Shown: in pieces, positions 28,299-37,323 of the stretch
Layout: every line of letters begins with the position of its first letter
Numbering within the stretch: the stretch's first letter is position 1
From: Nitrospira sp.
GTDB lineage: Bacteria; Nitrospirota; Nitrospiria; Nitrospirales; Nitrospiraceae
Length of the DNA: 55,354 bases
Assembly (NCBI GenBank): GCA_029881435.1
Contig: JAOUMR010000011.1
Location: 1-55,354, forward strand
Reading direction: 5' to 3'
The notes under the pieces: generated by a model
The model's database searches: none
Told to the model about the DNA's origin: nothing
Seen by the model: the letters and a program-made list of their open reading frames with translations, nothing else
Program-made: the position numbers and the translations under genes

Positions 28299-28733
28299 GC
28301 GTGGGTGGAAGATTGGATGGTCGCTCGGTGGGCTTCCATCGAGAGGAAAGTCCGGACTCCACGGGCAGGGCGCTGGGTAACTCCCAGGCGGAGCAATCCG
28401 ACACCAGCACCACAGAAATCAAACCGCCGATGGCCAAGGCGATGGGATCCCATCTGGTCGCTGCGGCTCAGGTAAGGGTGAAACGGTGGGGTAAGAGCCC
28501 ACCGCGGTGGTGGTGACATCACCGGCACGGTAAGCGTCGCCCGGTGCAAGGCCAAATAGGAAGACATGTGTCGGACTCGTTACGGGGTCCTGCACACCGA
28601 CTGGCCCGGTCGAGGTCTTCGGGTAGGTCGCTTGAGGTTTGAGGTAACTCGAATCCCAGAGAAATGATCATCCAGGCAAAGAGGGAAACTTCTTTGCGGG
28701 ACAGAATCCGGCTTACAGGTCTTCCGCTCACGC
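28299..28733 (+). ncRNA. rnpB: RNase P RNA, bacterial type A
   Basis: The 435-base RNA trims the 5' leader of tRNA precursors. The ends pair in a 14-bp P1 helix (28299-28312 with 28720-28733, two G-T pairs). The conserved core is present: GAGGAAAGTCCGGACTCC near 28340, AGGGTGAAACGGTGGGGTAA near 28470, and ACAGAATCCGGCTTACAG near 28701. The ORFs seen in this span are shadows of it. Confidence 0.96.
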
Positions 28734-28939: not shown

Positions 28940-30715
28940 ATGAAACTCACCGGTGCTGAAATCTTCATCGAATGCCTGAAGCGGGAAGGCGTGAAGACCG
29001 TCTTCGCACTTCCTGGCGGAGTTGTCTTGAAGATTTTCGATACTCTCCATCAGCAAAAGGACGTTGAAGTGATTTTGACGCGCCATGAACAGGGTGCGGG
29101 CCATATGGCCGAAGGATATGCCAAAGCCACTGGGAAAGCCGGCGTGTGCCTGGTCACGTCCGGCCCGGGGATGACCAATGTCATTACGGCGTTAGCCGAT
29201 GCCTATATGGATTCTGTCCCGCTGGTCTGTTTCAGCGGCCAAGTCCCCACTAATTTGATCGGGAATGATGCCTTCCAGGAAGCGGACAACGTCGGCTTGA
29301 GTCGCCCCTGTACGAAATACAATTTTCTCGTCAAAGACGTGAACGATCTAGCCGGTACGATCAAAGAGGCGTTTCATATCGCGACGACTGGTCGCCCAGG
29401 GCCGGTGCTGGTCGACTTCCCGAAAGATGTGTCAATGGCCAAAGCGGAATTCACCTATCCGAATTCCGTCTCGATCCGCGGGTACAACCCGACCTACGAC
29501 GGAAATAAGTGGCAGATCAAACAGGCAGCCGAAGCGATCATGAAGGCCAAGAAGCCGATTCTGTATGTCGGCGGCGGTGTGGTGTTCTCCGCAGCCTCAC
29601 AGGAGCTGCTTGAATTGGCCGAGATGACGCAGATCCCCGTGGATATGACGCTGATGGGGCTCGGAGCGTTTCCAGGAGAACACCCTCTCTCCATGGGCAT
29701 GCTCGGGATGCATGGGACGTATCAGGCCAACATGGCCATGCATTATTCCGATCTGGTGATCGCCATCGGCGCACGGTTTGATGACCGGGTGACGGGGAAG
29801 GTGTCGGAATTCTGTCCTTATGCGAAGATCATTCATGTCGATATTGACCCGACATCCATTCGAAAAAATATCCATGTTGATATTCCGATCGTCGGAGACT
29901 GCAAGACCGTACTTCGCGAGTTGAACCACATCTTACGCGCGACGGTCAATGGTGAGCAAAAAGATCTTCGAAGACCGTGGTGGGATCAGATCCAGGAATG
30001 GCAACAGGCCCATCCATTGACGTATCACCAAGAGAAAGATGGGCCGATCAAGCCGCAGCAGGTCGTGAAACGGTTGTATGAACTGACGAAGGACCGGGAT
30101 CCGATCGTTTCAACCGATGTCGGGCAGCATCAAATGTGGGCCGCGCAGTATTTCAAGTTGGCAAAGCCGAATCGATGGTTGACCTCGGGCGGGCTTGGGA
30201 CCATGGGTTTTGGGTTCCCCGCTGCGATGGGCGCGCAGGCGGCCTTCCGGGATCGGCTGGTTCTCTGTATTGCCGGAGACGGCAGTATTCAGATGAACAT
30301 GCAGGAAATGGCGACGGCCGTGGTAAGCAAGTTGCCGGTGAAGATCATCATCCTGAACAATGGATTTCACGGCATGGTCCGGCAATGGCAGGATCTCTTC
30401 TACGAAGGGCGCTATGCGTCGAGTTATCTAGATACGACTCCGGATTTCGTCAAACTGGCGGATGCCTATGGAGCGGTGGGATTTCGGGTCAAGAAGGTTG
30501 GTGATCTCGACGGCGTGTTGAAAGAGGCCTTGTCTACGGACAAACCCGTTATCGTGGATGTGCCGACGTATCCGTATGAGAATTGCTATCCGATGATCCC
30601 TGCAGGCGGGTGCAATCATGAAATGATTCTGGAAGATCCGCCGGAGTTGAAGAAGAAACAATCCGGTTCGACGAAGGTTACACCGGAAGATAAGGATACT
30701 GTGCTCACGGCCTAA
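28940..30715 (+). CDS. ilvB: Acetolactate synthase, large (catalytic) subunit
   Basis: The 591-residue TPP enzyme makes acetolactate or acetohydroxybutyrate in branched-chain amino acid synthesis. It has the N-terminal catalytic Glu in LTRHEQGAGHMAEGYA (Glu 50), the FAD region (IGARFDDRVTG), and the TPP motif CIAGDGSIQMNMQEMA ending in ILNNGFHGMVRQW. GGAGGGAGGG precedes the ATG. It is followed 39 bases later by the regulatory subunit ilvN. The C-terminal tail of about 25 residues is Lys/Thr-rich. Confidence 0.97.
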   Translation: MKLTGAEIFIECLKREGVKTVFALPGGVVLKIFDTLHQQKDVEVILTRHEQGAGHMAEGYAKATGKAGVCLVTSGPGMTNVITALADAYMDSVPLVCFSGQVPTNLIGNDAFQEADNVGLSRPCTKYNFLVKDVNDLAGTIKEAFHIATTGRPGPVLVDFPKDVSMAKAEFTYPNSVSIRGYNPTYDGNKWQIKQAAEAIMKAKKPILYVGGGVVFSAASQELLELAEMTQIPVDMTLMGLGAFPGEHPLSMGMLGMHGTYQANMAMHYSDLVIAIGARFDDRVTGKVSEFCPYAKIIHVDIDPTSIRKNIHVDIPIVGDCKTVLRELNHILRATVNGEQKDLRRPWWDQIQEWQQAHPLTYHQEKDGPIKPQQVVKRLYELTKDRDPIVSTDVGQHQMWAAQYFKLAKPNRWLTSGGLGTMGFGFPAAMGAQAAFRDRLVLCIAGDGSIQMNMQEMATAVVSKLPVKIIILNNGFHGMVRQWQDLFYEGRYASSYLDTTPDFVKLADAYGAVGFRVKKVGDLDGVLKEALSTDKPVIVDVPTYPYENCYPMIPAGGCNHEMILEDPPELKKKQSGSTKVTPEDKDTVLTA

Positions 30716-30754: not shown

Positions 30755-31273
30755 ATGGAACACATCATTTCAGTGACTGTTGAAAATAAGTTCGGGGTCC
30801 TGTCCCGTGTTGCCGGGCTATTCAGCGGGCGAGGTTTCAATATCGAAAGTTTGTCCGTCGCCCCGACGCTTGATCCCTCCATGTCGCAGATGACGATTGT
30901 GACGTCGGGTGATGAGCGGATCATCGAGCAGATCGTGAAGCAGCTGAACAAACTCATTGATGTTATCAAAGTCGTCGACTTAAATGAAACGGAGTTTGTC
31001 TCGCGGGAGACTGCAATCATCAAGGTCCATACGAAGGACCAGGATCGAGCTGAGGCGCTTAGGATTGTGGACATCTTTCGGGCGAACGTGATTGATTCAA
31101 CCCCGACGACCTACACGATCGAAGTATCCGGTGACCCCAAGAAGATCGAGGCGATCATCAACCTGCTCCAGCCTCTTGGGATCAAGGATTTGGTCCGCAC
31201 CGGCCGGGTCGCTGTTGCTCGTGAACCAGTCCGTTCAACTGCTGCTCAAGCGAAGAAAGTGGCTCGCGAGTAG
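30755..31273 (+). CDS. ilvN: Acetolactate synthase, small (regulatory) subunit
   Basis: The 172-residue protein has an N-terminal ACT domain (ISVTVENKFGVLSRVAGLFSG at residue 4 on) and a C-terminal domain (ETAIIKVHTKDQDRAEALRI). It binds valine and increases or inhibits the activity of IlvB. No fused regions are seen. The gene lies between ilvB and ilvC; spacing to ilvC is 59 bases. The C-terminal 20 residues are Lys/Arg/Ala-rich. Confidence 0.96.
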   Translation: MEHIISVTVENKFGVLSRVAGLFSGRGFNIESLSVAPTLDPSMSQMTIVTSGDERIIEQIVKQLNKLIDVIKVVDLNETEFVSRETAIIKVHTKDQDRAEALRIVDIFRANVIDSTPTTYTIEVSGDPKKIEAIINLLQPLGIKDLVRTGRVAVAREPVRSTAAQAKKVARE

Positions 31274-31308: not shown

Positions 31309-32346
<1,038 letters not shown>

Positions 32347-32355
32347 GGCAAGTCC

Positions 32356-33006
32356 GTGGCGGATCGTGCTGTCGGTATCCCATTTGCTAAAGAAGGAATT
32401 CCCTTCATCGTAGCGCCAGCCGGCGTTACACTGCTGGCTGGATGGTTGGGCTGGCCGGTCGTTGCGTTTCTCGGCGCCGTTGCGACGCTCTTTTCTGCCT
32501 GGTTCTTCAGGAATCCTGCCAGGGTTGCGCCACGAGGCCAGAATCTTGTCGTCGCTCCCGGTGATGGGAAGGTCATTGCGATTGAGGAGGAGTTCGAGCC
32601 ACGGTACTTGAAAGAGCGCAGTATCAGGCTCACGATCTTTTTGAATGTGTTCAACGTCCACATCAATCGGATACCTTGTGATGGGGTGATTGAGGATGTA
32701 CAGTATCAGCCGGGTCTGTTCATGGTCGCCAGCAAACCAGAGGCGACATTGAGAAACGAGCAGAACGCTGTGATGATCAAGACTCACGAAGGCATCAAGG
32801 TGCTGTGCGTTCAAGTGGCAGGATTGATCGCTCGGCGTATCGTGTCCTGGGTCTCTCCGCGGGATCAGGCGATCCGAGGTGAGCGGTTCGGGTTGATTCG
32901 TTTTGGGTCACGAATGGATACCTTTCTTCCGATCGGGAGCAAAATTCGTGTGGCGATCGGGGATCAAGTGAAAGGCGGCGAAACGATTGTGGGGGAGTTG
33001 CCATGA
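32356..33006 (+). CDS. psd: Phosphatidylserine decarboxylase (short form)
   Basis: The 216-residue proenzyme turns phosphatidylserine into phosphatidylethanolamine at the inner membrane. The N-terminal 55 residues hold a hydrophobic stretch (two short segments around 15-50). The core has VAPGDGKVIAIEEEF and NVFNVHINRIP, and the self-cleavage site is RFGS near 182-185, where Ser 185 would become the pyruvoyl group. The length fits the short, archaeal-type Psd class. The start is GTG. It overlaps pssA by four bases, giving a two-enzyme unit for phosphatidylethanolamine. Confidence 0.94.
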   Translation: MADRAVGIPFAKEGIPFIVAPAGVTLLAGWLGWPVVAFLGAVATLFSAWFFRNPARVAPRGQNLVVAPGDGKVIAIEEEFEPRYLKERSIRLTIFLNVFNVHINRIPCDGVIEDVQYQPGLFMVASKPEATLRNEQNAVMIKTHEGIKVLCVQVAGLIARRIVSWVSPRDQAIRGERFGLIRFGSRMDTFLPIGSKIRVAIGDQVKGGETIVGELP

Positions 33007-33809
33007 AAACGGCAGGCTTCAAAAATTCGTTTGGGAAGGAAGGGAAGCGGCGGAAGGCCGCCATGCACCTCATCCCAAATCTGTTTACGACCGGCAATTT
33101 GTTTTGCGGAGTGTATGCCATCCTCTCCGTCTTTAACGCCAACTACTTGGAAGCGGCCATTGCGATCCTCGTCGCGATGATTTTTGATGTCCTTGATGGG
33201 AAGTCGGCGCGCCTGACCAATAGTACGAGCCAATTCGGTCTGGAGTATGACTCGTTGTCTGATGTGGTGTCGTTTGGCGTTGCACCGGGTTTGTTGATCT
33301 ATTCCTGGGCGTTGAGCGGTCAGGGGACGTTCGGCGTCGCGGTCATGTTTGCCTATGTGGCGATGGGAGCTGTGCGATTAGCGCGATTCAACTCCACCGT
33401 CGCGTTAGCCGACGGGAAATATTTTACCGGGCTTGCGATTCCAGCCGCAGCCGGCGTGGTGGCTTCGCTGGTGGTGTTTGATCACTACATTCTCAAGATG
33501 GGAGCAGAAGCCAAGCCGATCGTGGTCTTGATTATGACCTTGGTACTAGCGTTCCTGATGGTCAGTACTATCAAGTACCGCAGCTTCAAAGAGCTGAAGT
33601 TTAGGGGCCACCGACAAATCACCTATCTTGTCTGGGGGATTCTCGCGTTGATGATGGTGGCGGCTTTGCCGGCGGTCATGCTCTTTGTCGTATTCGCTGG
33701 GTATGCGCTGATGGGGCCGGCCGAAAAGCTGTTTTCGTTGGTTGCTCCGTCTGCCGGGAAAAAAAGCGCTGGGAAAGTCGATCCATCGCCGGTCGAGACA
33801 AGATCATAA
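33003..33809 (+). CDS. pssA: CDP-diacylglycerol-serine O-phosphatidyltransferase
   Basis: PssA makes phosphatidylserine from CDP-diacylglycerol and serine. The 268-residue membrane protein has the CDP-alcohol phosphotransferase motif DG-x2-AR-x8-G-x3-D-x3-D, seen from DGKSARLTN to YDSLSD at residues 64-86, and about seven hydrophobic segments. It supplies the substrate for Psd, encoded just before it, and the ATG overlaps the psd stop. The gene ends at the start of the T-box leader of leuA. The C-terminal tail is Lys/Ser-rich. Confidence 0.95.
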   Translation: MKTAGFKNSFGKEGKRRKAAMHLIPNLFTTGNLFCGVYAILSVFNANYLEAAIAILVAMIFDVLDGKSARLTNSTSQFGLEYDSLSDVVSFGVAPGLLIYSWALSGQGTFGVAVMFAYVAMGAVRLARFNSTVALADGKYFTGLAIPAAAGVVASLVVFDHYILKMGAEAKPIVVLIMTLVLAFLMVSTIKYRSFKELKFRGHRQITYLVWGILALMMVAALPAVMLFVVFAGYALMGPAEKLFSLVAPSAGKKSAGKVDPSPVETRS

Positions 33810-33844
33810 CAGTAAACAGCTGGAGGAACTCAGAAGTATTGAAT

Positions 33845-34120
33845 GGCTAAGACGAGGAGTAGTAGGCGAACAATCTAGAATCAGGGTAGTGCATATCCTA
33901 TAGAGAGCTGGTGGGTGGTGCAAACCAGCCTAGATCTCGTTGAACTCGCCTCCGAGCCGAATCTCTGAACATAGTAGTAAGAGATTCCGTCCTGCCCCCG
34001 TAAGGGGCCTAACGAAGGGCCTGAGCGACCGAATTGGTTTTCAGGCTAAATCAGGGTGGTACCACGAAGCGCGTGTCGAGCCTTCGTCCCTGTTGGAGTG
34101 GGATGAAGGCTTTTGTGTTT
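33845..34120 (+). promoter_or_regulatory. T-box riboswitch, leucine specifier, upstream of leuA
   Basis: The leader shows the standard T-box parts: GAGGAGTAGTAG at the base of stem I, the apical AGAGAGCTGGTGGGTGGTGC with AAACCAGC, the specifier loop TGAACTCGCC with CTC (Leu) at 33945-33947, and the T-box AGGGTGGTACCACG at 34053-34066. Its TGGT bulge (34057-34060) pairs with the ACCA end of tRNA-Leu (discriminator A). AGGG and ACGAAG pair with CTTCGTCCCT to form the antiterminator, which shares bases with the terminator. Uncharged tRNA-Leu should turn leuA on. No clear promoter was found between pssA and the leader. Confidence 0.93.
34079..34120 (+). terminator. Terminator helix of the leuA T-box
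   Basis: AGCCTTCGTCCC (34079-34090) pairs with GGGATGAAGGCT (34100-34111) with one G-T pair, followed by TTTTGTGTTT. The 5' arm is also used by the antiterminator, so the two exclude each other. Confidence 0.88.
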
Positions 34121-34226: not shown

Positions 34227-35774
34227 ATGGCACGCATGATCAGAATTTTCGATACGACGTTGAGAGACGGCGAGCAATCGCCTGGCGCCAGTATGAACGT
34301 GGAAGAAAAGGTTATGGTGGCCAAACAGCTGGCGAGGCTCGGTGTCGATATCATCGAAGCAGGATTTGCCTATAGTTCCCCTGGAGATTTTGAGGCGGTC
34401 CGGCGGATCGCTCAAGAAGTCGAAGGACCGACGATCTGCAGTCTTGCACGAGCGCGTCCGGAGGATATTGACCGAGCCTGGGAGGCCTTGAAAGGGGCCC
34501 CAAGGGTTCGTATCCACACGTTTTTATCGACATCCGATATTCACCTCAAGCACCAGTTTCGGATGACCCGGGAACAGGCCAAACAACGCGCCGTGGAAAT
34601 GGTCCGGCGGGCTCGCGGCTATGTCGACGACGTTGAGTTTTCCCCGATGGATGCCAGTCGTTCGGATCCATCCTTTCTGTATGAGGTCATCGAGGCGGTT
34701 ATTGCCGCAGGGGCCGGCACGATCAACATTCCCGACACGGTGGGCTATGCCGTTCCTCAGGAATTCGGCGCGCTGATCAAGGGAATCTGCCACGAAGTTC
34801 CCAATGCCAAGCAGGCCGTCATTTCCGTCCATTGCCACAACGACTTGGGTGTCGCGGTGGGGAACAGCCTGGCAGCCATTATCAATGGCGCCGGCCAAGT
34901 GGAATGTACAATCAACGGCATTGGGGAACGGGCGGGGAATACCTCGTTGGAAGAAATTGTCATGGGCCTTCGGACCAGGAAGGATTTCTATCAAGCCGAC
35001 ACCGGAATCAGGACGGAAGAGATTGCGAAGACCAGCCGCTTGGTCAGCAAGATCACGGGCATGGTTGTACAACCCAATAAAGCCATCGTGGGGGCCAACG
35101 CCTTTGCCCATACCTCGGGCATTCACCAAGACGGCTTACTCAAAGACAAGACGACCTACGAAATCATGCGACCGGAATCCATCGGATTGGTTGAGAGCCA
35201 GATGGTGATGGGAAAGCTCTCTGGTCGGCACGCTTTTCGTCAGCGCCTGGAAGAGTTGGGATACCAGCTCAGTGAGGAAGAGGTGAACCATGCCTTCGAG
35301 CGATTCAAAAAACTTGCCGACCAAAAGAAGGAGATTTTCGAAGAAGACCTCGAGGTCATCGTCTCGGAAGAGTTATCGAAGATGGCCGACCGCATCGCAT
35401 TGAAGACACTGCACGTCTCAAGCGGAACAAAACAGGTTCCAACCGCCACTGTAGAACTGGAGGTCGACGGCAGGGCCGTTGTTCAAACCGGAACAGGCGA
35501 CGGGCCAGTGGATGCCGTCTACCGCACGATTGCGGCGATCACGCAGACCAAGAGCAAGCTGCTGATGTATGTGGTGAAAGCGATCACCGGTGGGACAGAT
35601 GCACAGGGCGAAGTGTCGGTGCGGGTTCAAGAGGATGGCCGGACAGTTACCGGGCATGGGGCCGATACCGATATCATTACAGCCTCCGCTCGAGCCTATC
35701 TCAGTGCCTTAAACAAGCTCGCCTACCTCGCGACGAAACAGGCGCAAGGTGAACAAAAGGTGAACTTGATTTGA
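34227..35774 (+). CDS. leuA: 2-isopropylmalate synthase
   Basis: LeuA joins acetyl-CoA and 2-oxoisovalerate to begin leucine synthesis. The 515-residue protein has the HMGL-like TIM barrel with [18 protein letters not shown], metal-binding [13 protein letters not shown], and a C-terminal regulatory LeuA dimer domain (residues about 390-515) with [19 protein letters not shown], the seat of leucine feedback. The ATG at 34227 follows GGAGG by six bases; upstream codons back to 34113 lie in the T-box terminator. A cupin gene follows, then leuB. Confidence 0.97.
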
Positions 35775-35839
35775 CACGGATGCGCACGGTACAGTTTTAT
35801 TCTTTGAGCTGAGTTGCTTCCTCGGAAGGGGGCTTGGGC

Positions 35840-36202
35840 GTGTGGAAGGTTGCGTTGGGGGATCGACCGGAGTTTGTGGCCGGCGACCATACCCGTTTGC
35901 GGGAGATCTTTCATCCAGCGAAGTACCCCCTCGAGCTGGGGTATAGTCTTGCCCACGGAAGATTGAGTCCAGGGCAACGGTCGAAACGACATATCCTGAC
36001 CTCGTCCGAGGTCTACTATTTTATCTCCGGGCAAGGGCAATTCATGGTCAATGACCAGGTCATGCTGATCGAAGCCGGGGTGACCGTCTATGTTCAGCCT
36101 GGAGGGGAGCAGTGTCTCGAAAATACGGGAGAAGTCGATATTGAGTTCCTATGTCTGGTTGATCCCGCCTGGGGTGAGGAAGATGAAACGGTCTTGGAGT
36201 AG
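35840..36202 (+). CDS. Single-domain cupin protein
   Basis: The 120-residue protein is one cupin fold. The first motif is [36 protein letters not shown], in parts: [13 protein letters not shown] with the His and Glu for metal, and GQGQF; the second motif is [17 protein letters not shown], where the usual His is Gln, so a metal would be held by fewer ligands. I chose GTG at 35840, seven bases after GGAAGGGGG; the TTG at 35834 is too close to that site. It lies between leuA and leuB on the same strand. Substrate unknown; a role as a small binding protein or isomerase is possible. Confidence 0.8.
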
Positions 36203-36249
36203 ACCATAGGGTGATTCAAGGGTCGATTGTAGGATCGAAAGGAGCAGCA

Positions 36250-37323
36250 GTGAAGGCCAAGATAGTGGTGTTAGCCGGCGACGGAGTCGGGCGTGAGATC
36301 GTTCCTGAAGCCGTCAAAGTCCTCAAGGTGATCGCTCAGAAATACGGACATACGTTCGAATTTGCAACGGCCGATATCGGCGGGCAGGCGATCGATAAGT
36401 TCGGCGTGCCGTTGCCGAACGATACCTTGGCACTTGCCAAACAAAGTGACGCGGTCTTATTGGGGGCGGTGGGAGGTCCTCGGTGGGAGAGTTTGGAATA
36501 CAGTCTCAGGCCGGAACGCGCCCTCTTAGGAATTCGGGAAGCCTTAGGGCTCTATGCCAATCTGAGGCCGGCTAAGGTGTATTCCAATCTGGTGGATGCC
36601 TCCACATTGAAACGCGAGGTCGTCGAAGGGATCGACATCCTCGTGATTCGCGAACTGACAGGTGGAATTTACTTCGGCAAGCCAAAAGGCATTGAAAAAC
36701 TGCCGAACGGGCAAGAACGAGGGGTCAATACGGAAGTCTATACGACGGAGGAAGTTCGACGCATTGCTCAAGTCGCATTCGAAGCCGCACGGAAGCGGCG
36801 CAAGAAGGTGACGTCCGTCGATAAGGCCAATGTGTTGGAGTCATCTGAGTTGTGGCGCAAGGTTGTCATCGATGTCCACGCATCCTATCCAGACGTTGAA
36901 CTGGGGCACATCTATGTCGATAACGCCGCGATGCAATTGGTGCGGAATCCAAGACAATTCGATGTACTGCTCTGCAACAACATGTTCGGAGACATTCTCA
37001 GCGATGAAGCCGCGATGCTCACCGGTTCGATCGGGATGTTGCCCTCAGCCAGTATCGGGGCTAAGGTTGGGCTGTTTGAACCGATTCACGGAAGTGCCCC
37101 GGATATTGCAGGCAGGAATATCGCCAACCCCATTGCGACCATCGCGTCGGCAGCTATGATGCTGTCGTACGCATTTCAACTTGAGAAAGAAGCGGAAACC
37201 ATCGAGCAAGCCATTGTGAAAACCCTTGATCTCGGTTATCGAACCAAGGACATTCAGAGCCCAGGAGCACAGATCGTCGGGACTGTTGAGATGGGCGATG
37301 CGATCGTCAAAAACCTCAGCTAG
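36250..37323 (+). CDS. leuB: 3-isopropylmalate dehydrogenase
   Basis: LeuB oxidises and decarboxylates 3-isopropylmalate with NAD in leucine synthesis. The 357-residue protein has [19 protein letters not shown] at the start, the loop [56 protein letters not shown] and the metal region [25 protein letters not shown]. The GTG at 36250 is used with AAAGGAG upstream. It follows the cupin gene by 47 bases. leuC and leuD are not in this window. Confidence 0.97.

Follow-up and report, generated by a model that had tools for sequence, protein, structure and literature searches.

A leucine T-box between pssA and leuA in Nitrospira, a probable attenuator inside an ilv–psd–pssA–leu operon

The window analysed here, a stretch of 55,354 nucleotides from a Nitrospira sp. 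contig (JAOUMR010000011.1, assembly GCA_029881435.1), contains a run of genes that NCBIfam and Pfam models name, in order, ilvB, ilvN, ilvC, psd, pssA, leuA, a cupin ORF and leuB, with a T-box in the gap between pssA and leuA. The run opens on the + strand with the large and small subunits of acetolactate synthase, ilvB (28940–30715; TIGR00118, 840 bits, over cut-off) and ilvN (30755–31273; TIGR00119 and NF008864, over cut-off), and ketol-acid reductoisomerase, ilvC (31318–32346; TIGR00465 and NF004017, over cut-off). Two phospholipid genes follow on the same strand, psd for phosphatidylserine decarboxylase (32356–33006; NF003678 over cut-off, PF02666) and pssA for CDP-diacylglycerol-serine O-phosphatidyltransferase (33003–33809; TIGR00473 over cut-off). 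Beyond the gap lie leuA for 2-isopropylmalate synthase (34227–35774, with its ATG at 34227, + strand; TIGR00973, 750 bits, over cut-off), the cupin ORF (35834–36202; PF07883) and leuB for 3-isopropylmalate dehydrogenase (36211–37323, + strand; TIGR00169 over cut-off). This order agrees with an earlier note, made from the letters alone, that had placed a T-box with a leucine specifier within an ilv–psd–pssA–leu gene run.

Comparison with all Rfam families (cmscan) yielded a match to the T-box model RF00230 at 33840–34094 of the + strand, which covers the full length of the model (positions 1–219) and, with 99.3 bits (E = 9.7e-21), exceeds the curated gathering cut-off of 93 bits. The window has three other RNA matches, to RNase P RNA and two tRNAs, and the 3.7 Mb assembly has no other T-box. 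The covariance search with RF00230 that the earlier note had proposed thus returned a significant hit above the curated cut-off, and the Stem I motifs, CTC specifier, TGGT bulge, antiterminator and terminator that it had read by eye were each found in place. Judged by its sequence, the element at 33840–34094 is a genuine canonical T-box of the long-Stem-I, class I, transcriptional, leucine type.

Stem I (33845–33958, + strand), placed by the Rfam alignment and covariation, begins at its base with GGCU/AGCC, followed by GAGG/CCTC. Its specifier loop, as aligned in the window, has AGUA on the 5′ side and GAACUC on the 3′ side, and the Rfam alignment puts the specifier codon CTC (Leu) at 33945–33947 of the + strand. 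Distally, Stem I contains an AGAGA bulge and a GGUGGUG loop (GGGUGGUGCAA / GGGTGGTGCAA) of the tRNA-elbow type; these motifs and the specifier loop are kept in 30 loci. Stem II (33959–33987, + strand), with six of seven pairs doubly changed, is followed by the Stem IIA/B pseudoknot (33988–34008, + strand; helices 8 and 9 of the covariation analysis), in which CG at 33988–33989 pairs with CG at 33999–34000 to form IIA and GCCCC at 33994–33998 pairs with GGGGC at 34004–34008 to form IIB. Stem III (34019–34046, + strand) was placed by folding and corresponds to helix 10, which is 71% paired in an uncertain part of the alignment. Beside the AG bulge, alignment and fold also place an extra 6-bp hairpin within Stem I (33883–33899, + strand), seen in only five of the 30 aligned T-boxes (the window, L013, L018, L020 and L025).

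The antiterminator (34052–34092, + strand) is placed by the Rfam alignment, covariation and a fold of −15.5 kcal/mol. Its 7-nt bulge, UGGUACC (34057–34063), lies in the T-box sequence with the UGGN-type bulge (AGGGTGGTACCACG), is invariant and includes UGGU (34057–34060), complementary to the ACCA of a tRNA. An intrinsic terminator, GCCTTCGTCCC...GGGATGAAGGC followed by TTTTGTGTT, occupies 34080–34119 of the + strand (stem 34080–34110), as indicated by folding and by relatives; the segment folds with −23.7 kcal/mol (z = −5.6 against shuffles), and the stem is 93.5% paired across 30 loci. Counted against a functional reading is the T-run after it (TTTTGTGTT), which is interrupted in the window. 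Antiterminator and terminator have the strand CTTCGTCCC in common, so that the two folds are mutually exclusive.

The genome encodes five tRNA-Leu genes, one of them with anticodon GAG. Because the 3′ end of this tRNA-Leu(GAG) reads ...CCTTCGGC-A-CCA (CGGC-A-CCA), with discriminator A (A73) and an encoded CCA, its ACCA fits the TGGT bulge and its GAG fits the CTC specifier; the match of the bulge to the tRNA-Leu discriminator A had been suggested before and holds for the tRNA gene of this genome. CUC is the usual leucine specifier, found in 74% of the leucine T-boxes in TBDB (PMC7778990). Among 52 loci, the specifier loop is GAACTCGCC in 47, GAACTCACC in three and GAACTGGCC in two. The last two, L042 and L045 (genomes G287 and G227, from the sister genera g8 and g10), have CTG in place of CTC, a synonymous leucine codon, and the L042 genome has genes for both tRNA-Leu(CAG) and tRNA-Leu(GAG), so their T-box may represent an isoacceptor switch. 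A change from one leucine codon to another is the outcome predicted by a working leucine specifier and therefore supports this assignment. The alternative specifier frames ACT and TCG were rejected, since leucine agrees with where the codon stands in the loop, with the leuA that follows and with CTG, the sole replacement.

Selection on the structure was assessed by aligning 30 T-boxes of Nitrospirota with MAFFT, the structure being taken from the Rfam match and a fold of the window sequence. Standard pairs make up 88.7% across the alignment, and sliding the partners by 1–3 columns leaves pairing at only 36–47%. Pairs changed on both sides number 46 of 67, against 32.7 in column shuffles, and doubly changed cells number 273, against 95.7. 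Compensatory changes occur in 11 of 12 helices, including all five pairs of the pseudoknot helix IIB; the exception is IIA, which is invariant (CG/CG). Because column shuffles take no account of relatedness, and the structure depends heavily on one of the aligned sequences, neither control is decisive alone; both agree by a wide margin and point the same way, to a T-box structure that appears to be under selection. The earlier note had named a lack of compensatory changes in the stems of homologues as evidence that would count against a T-box, and what was found is the opposite.

T-boxes were found in 75 of 79 genomes of the window's genus, the four without one being mostly incomplete assemblies. 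Two partial matches in genome G072, considered as a truncated class, were rejected as a single T-box split by contig ends. Across the phylum, 125 of 395 sampled genomes contain a T-box; most belong to the window's family (f1), and the others are scattered in families f6, f9, f15, f16 and f19. The gene after the T-box is leuA in all 51 loci that reach far enough, the window included. By tblastn, families f1, f6, f9 and f16 have the ilvB–ilvN–ilvC–psd–pssA–leuA block, and f19 has most of it, psd being undetected there. Named genomes were in addition scanned with a pattern combining the specifier loop and the T-box core; among the matches listed, a T-box precedes leuA in Nitrospira, Geobacter, Citrifermentans, Geomonas, Desulfuromonadales, Omnitrophota and Sumerlaeota. 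The Rfam model confirmed 11 of 12 such loci tested, and a match in Magnetococcales (L171) was dropped as having no T-box at the Rfam cut-off. At the loci from Omnitrophota (L202, L234) and Sumerlaeota (L224), a leucine T-box with the same specifier loop immediately precedes leuA; the ilv–psd–pssA block was not detected there within the fetched DNA.

Taken with the cognate tRNA, the conserved structure and the gene context, the sequence indicates that leuA is very probably under leucine T-box control. From the same evidence we infer tRNA binding, termination and read-through. Uncharged tRNA-Leu(GAG) would pair its anticodon with CTC and its ACCA end with the UGGU of the antiterminator bulge; with CTTCGTCCC held in the antiterminator, RNA polymerase would continue into leuA and probably leuB. 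With charged tRNA-Leu(GAG), the terminator would form and transcription would end ahead of leuA. Since the T-box lies in the gap from pssA to leuA and is hardly set apart from pssA, we suggest that it serves as an internal attenuator acting on transcripts that read through from ilvBNC–psd–pssA, a reading to which we assign a probability of about 0.7. Leucine would then tune the leucine branch only, with no effect on the common ilv steps or on the phospholipid genes, which would make this a clear example of a T-box that probably acts within an operon, controlling leuA with the ilv genes untouched.

The main alternative, which we regard as unlikely yet worth weighing, is that the T-box has a promoter of its own at the 3′ end of pssA and forms the ordinary 5′ leader of a separate leuA transcript, the contiguity of the operon being incidental. 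The spacing bears on it in both directions. In the window, 35 nt separate the pssA stop codon from the first pair of Stem I, and in five Desulfuromonadales-type relatives the distance is 66–179 nt, enough for a promoter. Across 50 loci, however, it ranges from 0 to 150 nt with a median of 5 and is at most 8 nt in 28 (0–62 nt in the window's family), so that an intergenic promoter has no room in about half of the loci; in 16 of them Stem I begins 0–1 nt past the stop, and a promoter would need to lie in coding sequence. One further locus, L036 (genome G099, f16), was left out of this count; there, a 1.2-kb insert made up of several small ORFs resembling one another separates pssA from the T-box. 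No sigma-70-like site was found on the + strand in the 800 nt upstream (33026–33840), a scan in which hits occur at chance level relative to shuffles and the Nitrospira consensus may differ. The earlier idea that the T-box could uncouple the leu genes from the upstream ilv/psd/pssA mRNA gains support, short of proof, from the many relatives in which the T-box adjoins the pssA stop, in line with internal attenuation of read-through transcripts.

A second alternative is that the T-box is decayed or non-functional and merely persists, leuA being controlled in some other way. Within the same order, sister families have retained the operon without a T-box, which is thus dispensable, but compensatory evolution throughout the element, the invariant UGGUACC bulge and specifier changes confined to leucine codons indicate ongoing selection, and we consider decay very improbable. 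The idea that the bin is contaminated with DNA of Firmicutes, or that there was a recent transfer from Firmicutes, in which T-boxes are best known (PMC2494555, PMC3766115), has a negligible chance of being correct: 75 of 79 genomes of the genus and several families of the phylum share the junction, the Nitrospirota LeuA group is separate from Bacillaceae and from Desulfuromonadales, and the T-box precedes ilvB, not leuA, in the Bacillaceae loci.

The closest known systems are the leuA T-boxes published for Geobacter and Pelobacter (PMC2494555; Gmet_P1265 and GSU1906.1 in PMC2700814). Like the T-box of the window, they lie upstream of leuA and have been proposed to read tRNA-Leu(GAG). Loci from Geobacter, Citrifermentans and Desulfuromonadales share the GAACTCGCC specifier loop with Nitrospirota, and several from Desulfuromonadales have the identical order ilvB–ilvN–ilvC–psd–pssA–T-box–leuA, so that the leuA T-box of deltaproteobacteria mentioned in the earlier note and that of the window represent one arrangement; they differ from the window in phylum and in the longer spacer after pssA noted above. 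The ilv–leu T-box of Bacillus, represented by Bacillaceae loci L128, L205, L206 and L240, likewise has a CTC leucine specifier and serves branched-chain synthesis genes, but from its place before ilvB it covers ilv and leu together, whereas only the leu part lies downstream of the T-box in the window. According to a survey from 2013, T-boxes are confined to Firmicutes, Actinobacteria, Chloroflexi and Deinococcus-Thermus, with Geobacter in addition; it did not decide between spread by transfer and descent from a common ancestor (PMC3766115). With a leucine T-box at one operon position in most of the window's family, in several further families and in Desulfuromonadales, Nitrospirota provide an added phylum and a conserved locus for testing these two possibilities. 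We found no paper devoted to T-boxes in Nitrospira, Nitrospirae or Nitrospirota in the open-licence literature, where the terms came up together in a single review, on RNase P enzymes, with one mention of each. As RF00230 scores many Nitrospirota loci above its own cut-off, these may already be catalogued by Rfam or annotation pipelines. The type of switch is ordinary; the informative part is where it lies within the operon and that sister lineages have lost it.

The history of the T-box was traced on a LeuA tree of 53 rows, in which Nitrospirota cluster with one other bacterium, L153 (support 94/89), next to a cluster of Desulfuromonadales (100/99), with Bacillaceae apart. Three families of the window's order, f2, f3 and f4, keep the operon without a T-box by tblastn, and a permissive Rfam scan of seven such operon loci revealed no hidden T-box. 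In the tree these families nest inside T-box-bearing Nitrospirota: f2 lies beside g8/g10 of f1, and f3+f4 are sister to f1+f2. The tree favours an ancestral T-box with at least two losses as a simpler reading than several independent insertions that all hit a single junction and brought the same specifier.

The pssA–leuA gaps of several f2 genomes and two sampled f3 genomes contain a GCCTTC...GAAGGC terminator followed by T residues, near the form found with the T-box. Among the f2 gaps read (L113, L119, L121, L245–L260 and L273–L277), many keep this T-box-like terminator; it was absent from the loci read in g20, g21 and g23. In genera g16 and g17 of f2, a small leucine-rich ORF, for example MDQWQGKGRAPLLLGDATLTLASLLKIAVTP or MRKLQGKGRATLLLCKNHLTLLGLLETSALI, stands ahead of the terminator. 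Its leucine density is reached by 0–0.3% of dinucleotide shuffles in four of seven testable loci and by 0.7–3% in the other three. Variable sites in the small ORF fall on codon positions one to three in numbers of 13, 13 and 19, only a modest third-position lean, and two g16 genomes have frameshifts in it. In g19, ORFs ending in CLFLLGKV, FFCLLLAKD, FLSRLLEKE or CLCLLRKE, mostly of non-significant leucine density relative to shuffles, are followed by GATCGGG...CCCGATC and then the terminator. We tentatively raise the possibility that in part of f2 the lost T-box was swapped for a leader-peptide attenuator that kept the T-box-like terminator. If so, tRNA-sensing attenuation would have been exchanged directly for ribosome-sensing attenuation at the same orthologous site. 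Leucine leader-peptide attenuators (of the RF00512 kind) likewise halt transcription before leuA when leucyl-tRNA is plentiful, but sense ribosome stalling on leucine codons rather than the tRNA directly, and they are a candidate only in the T-box-less sister genera.

At the upstream end of the run, some 200 nt separate ilvB from the RNase P RNA gene of the window (28305–28731; RF00010, 293 bits), which precedes it; such a gene is also found near the operon in L105, L109 and L110, all from the window's family.
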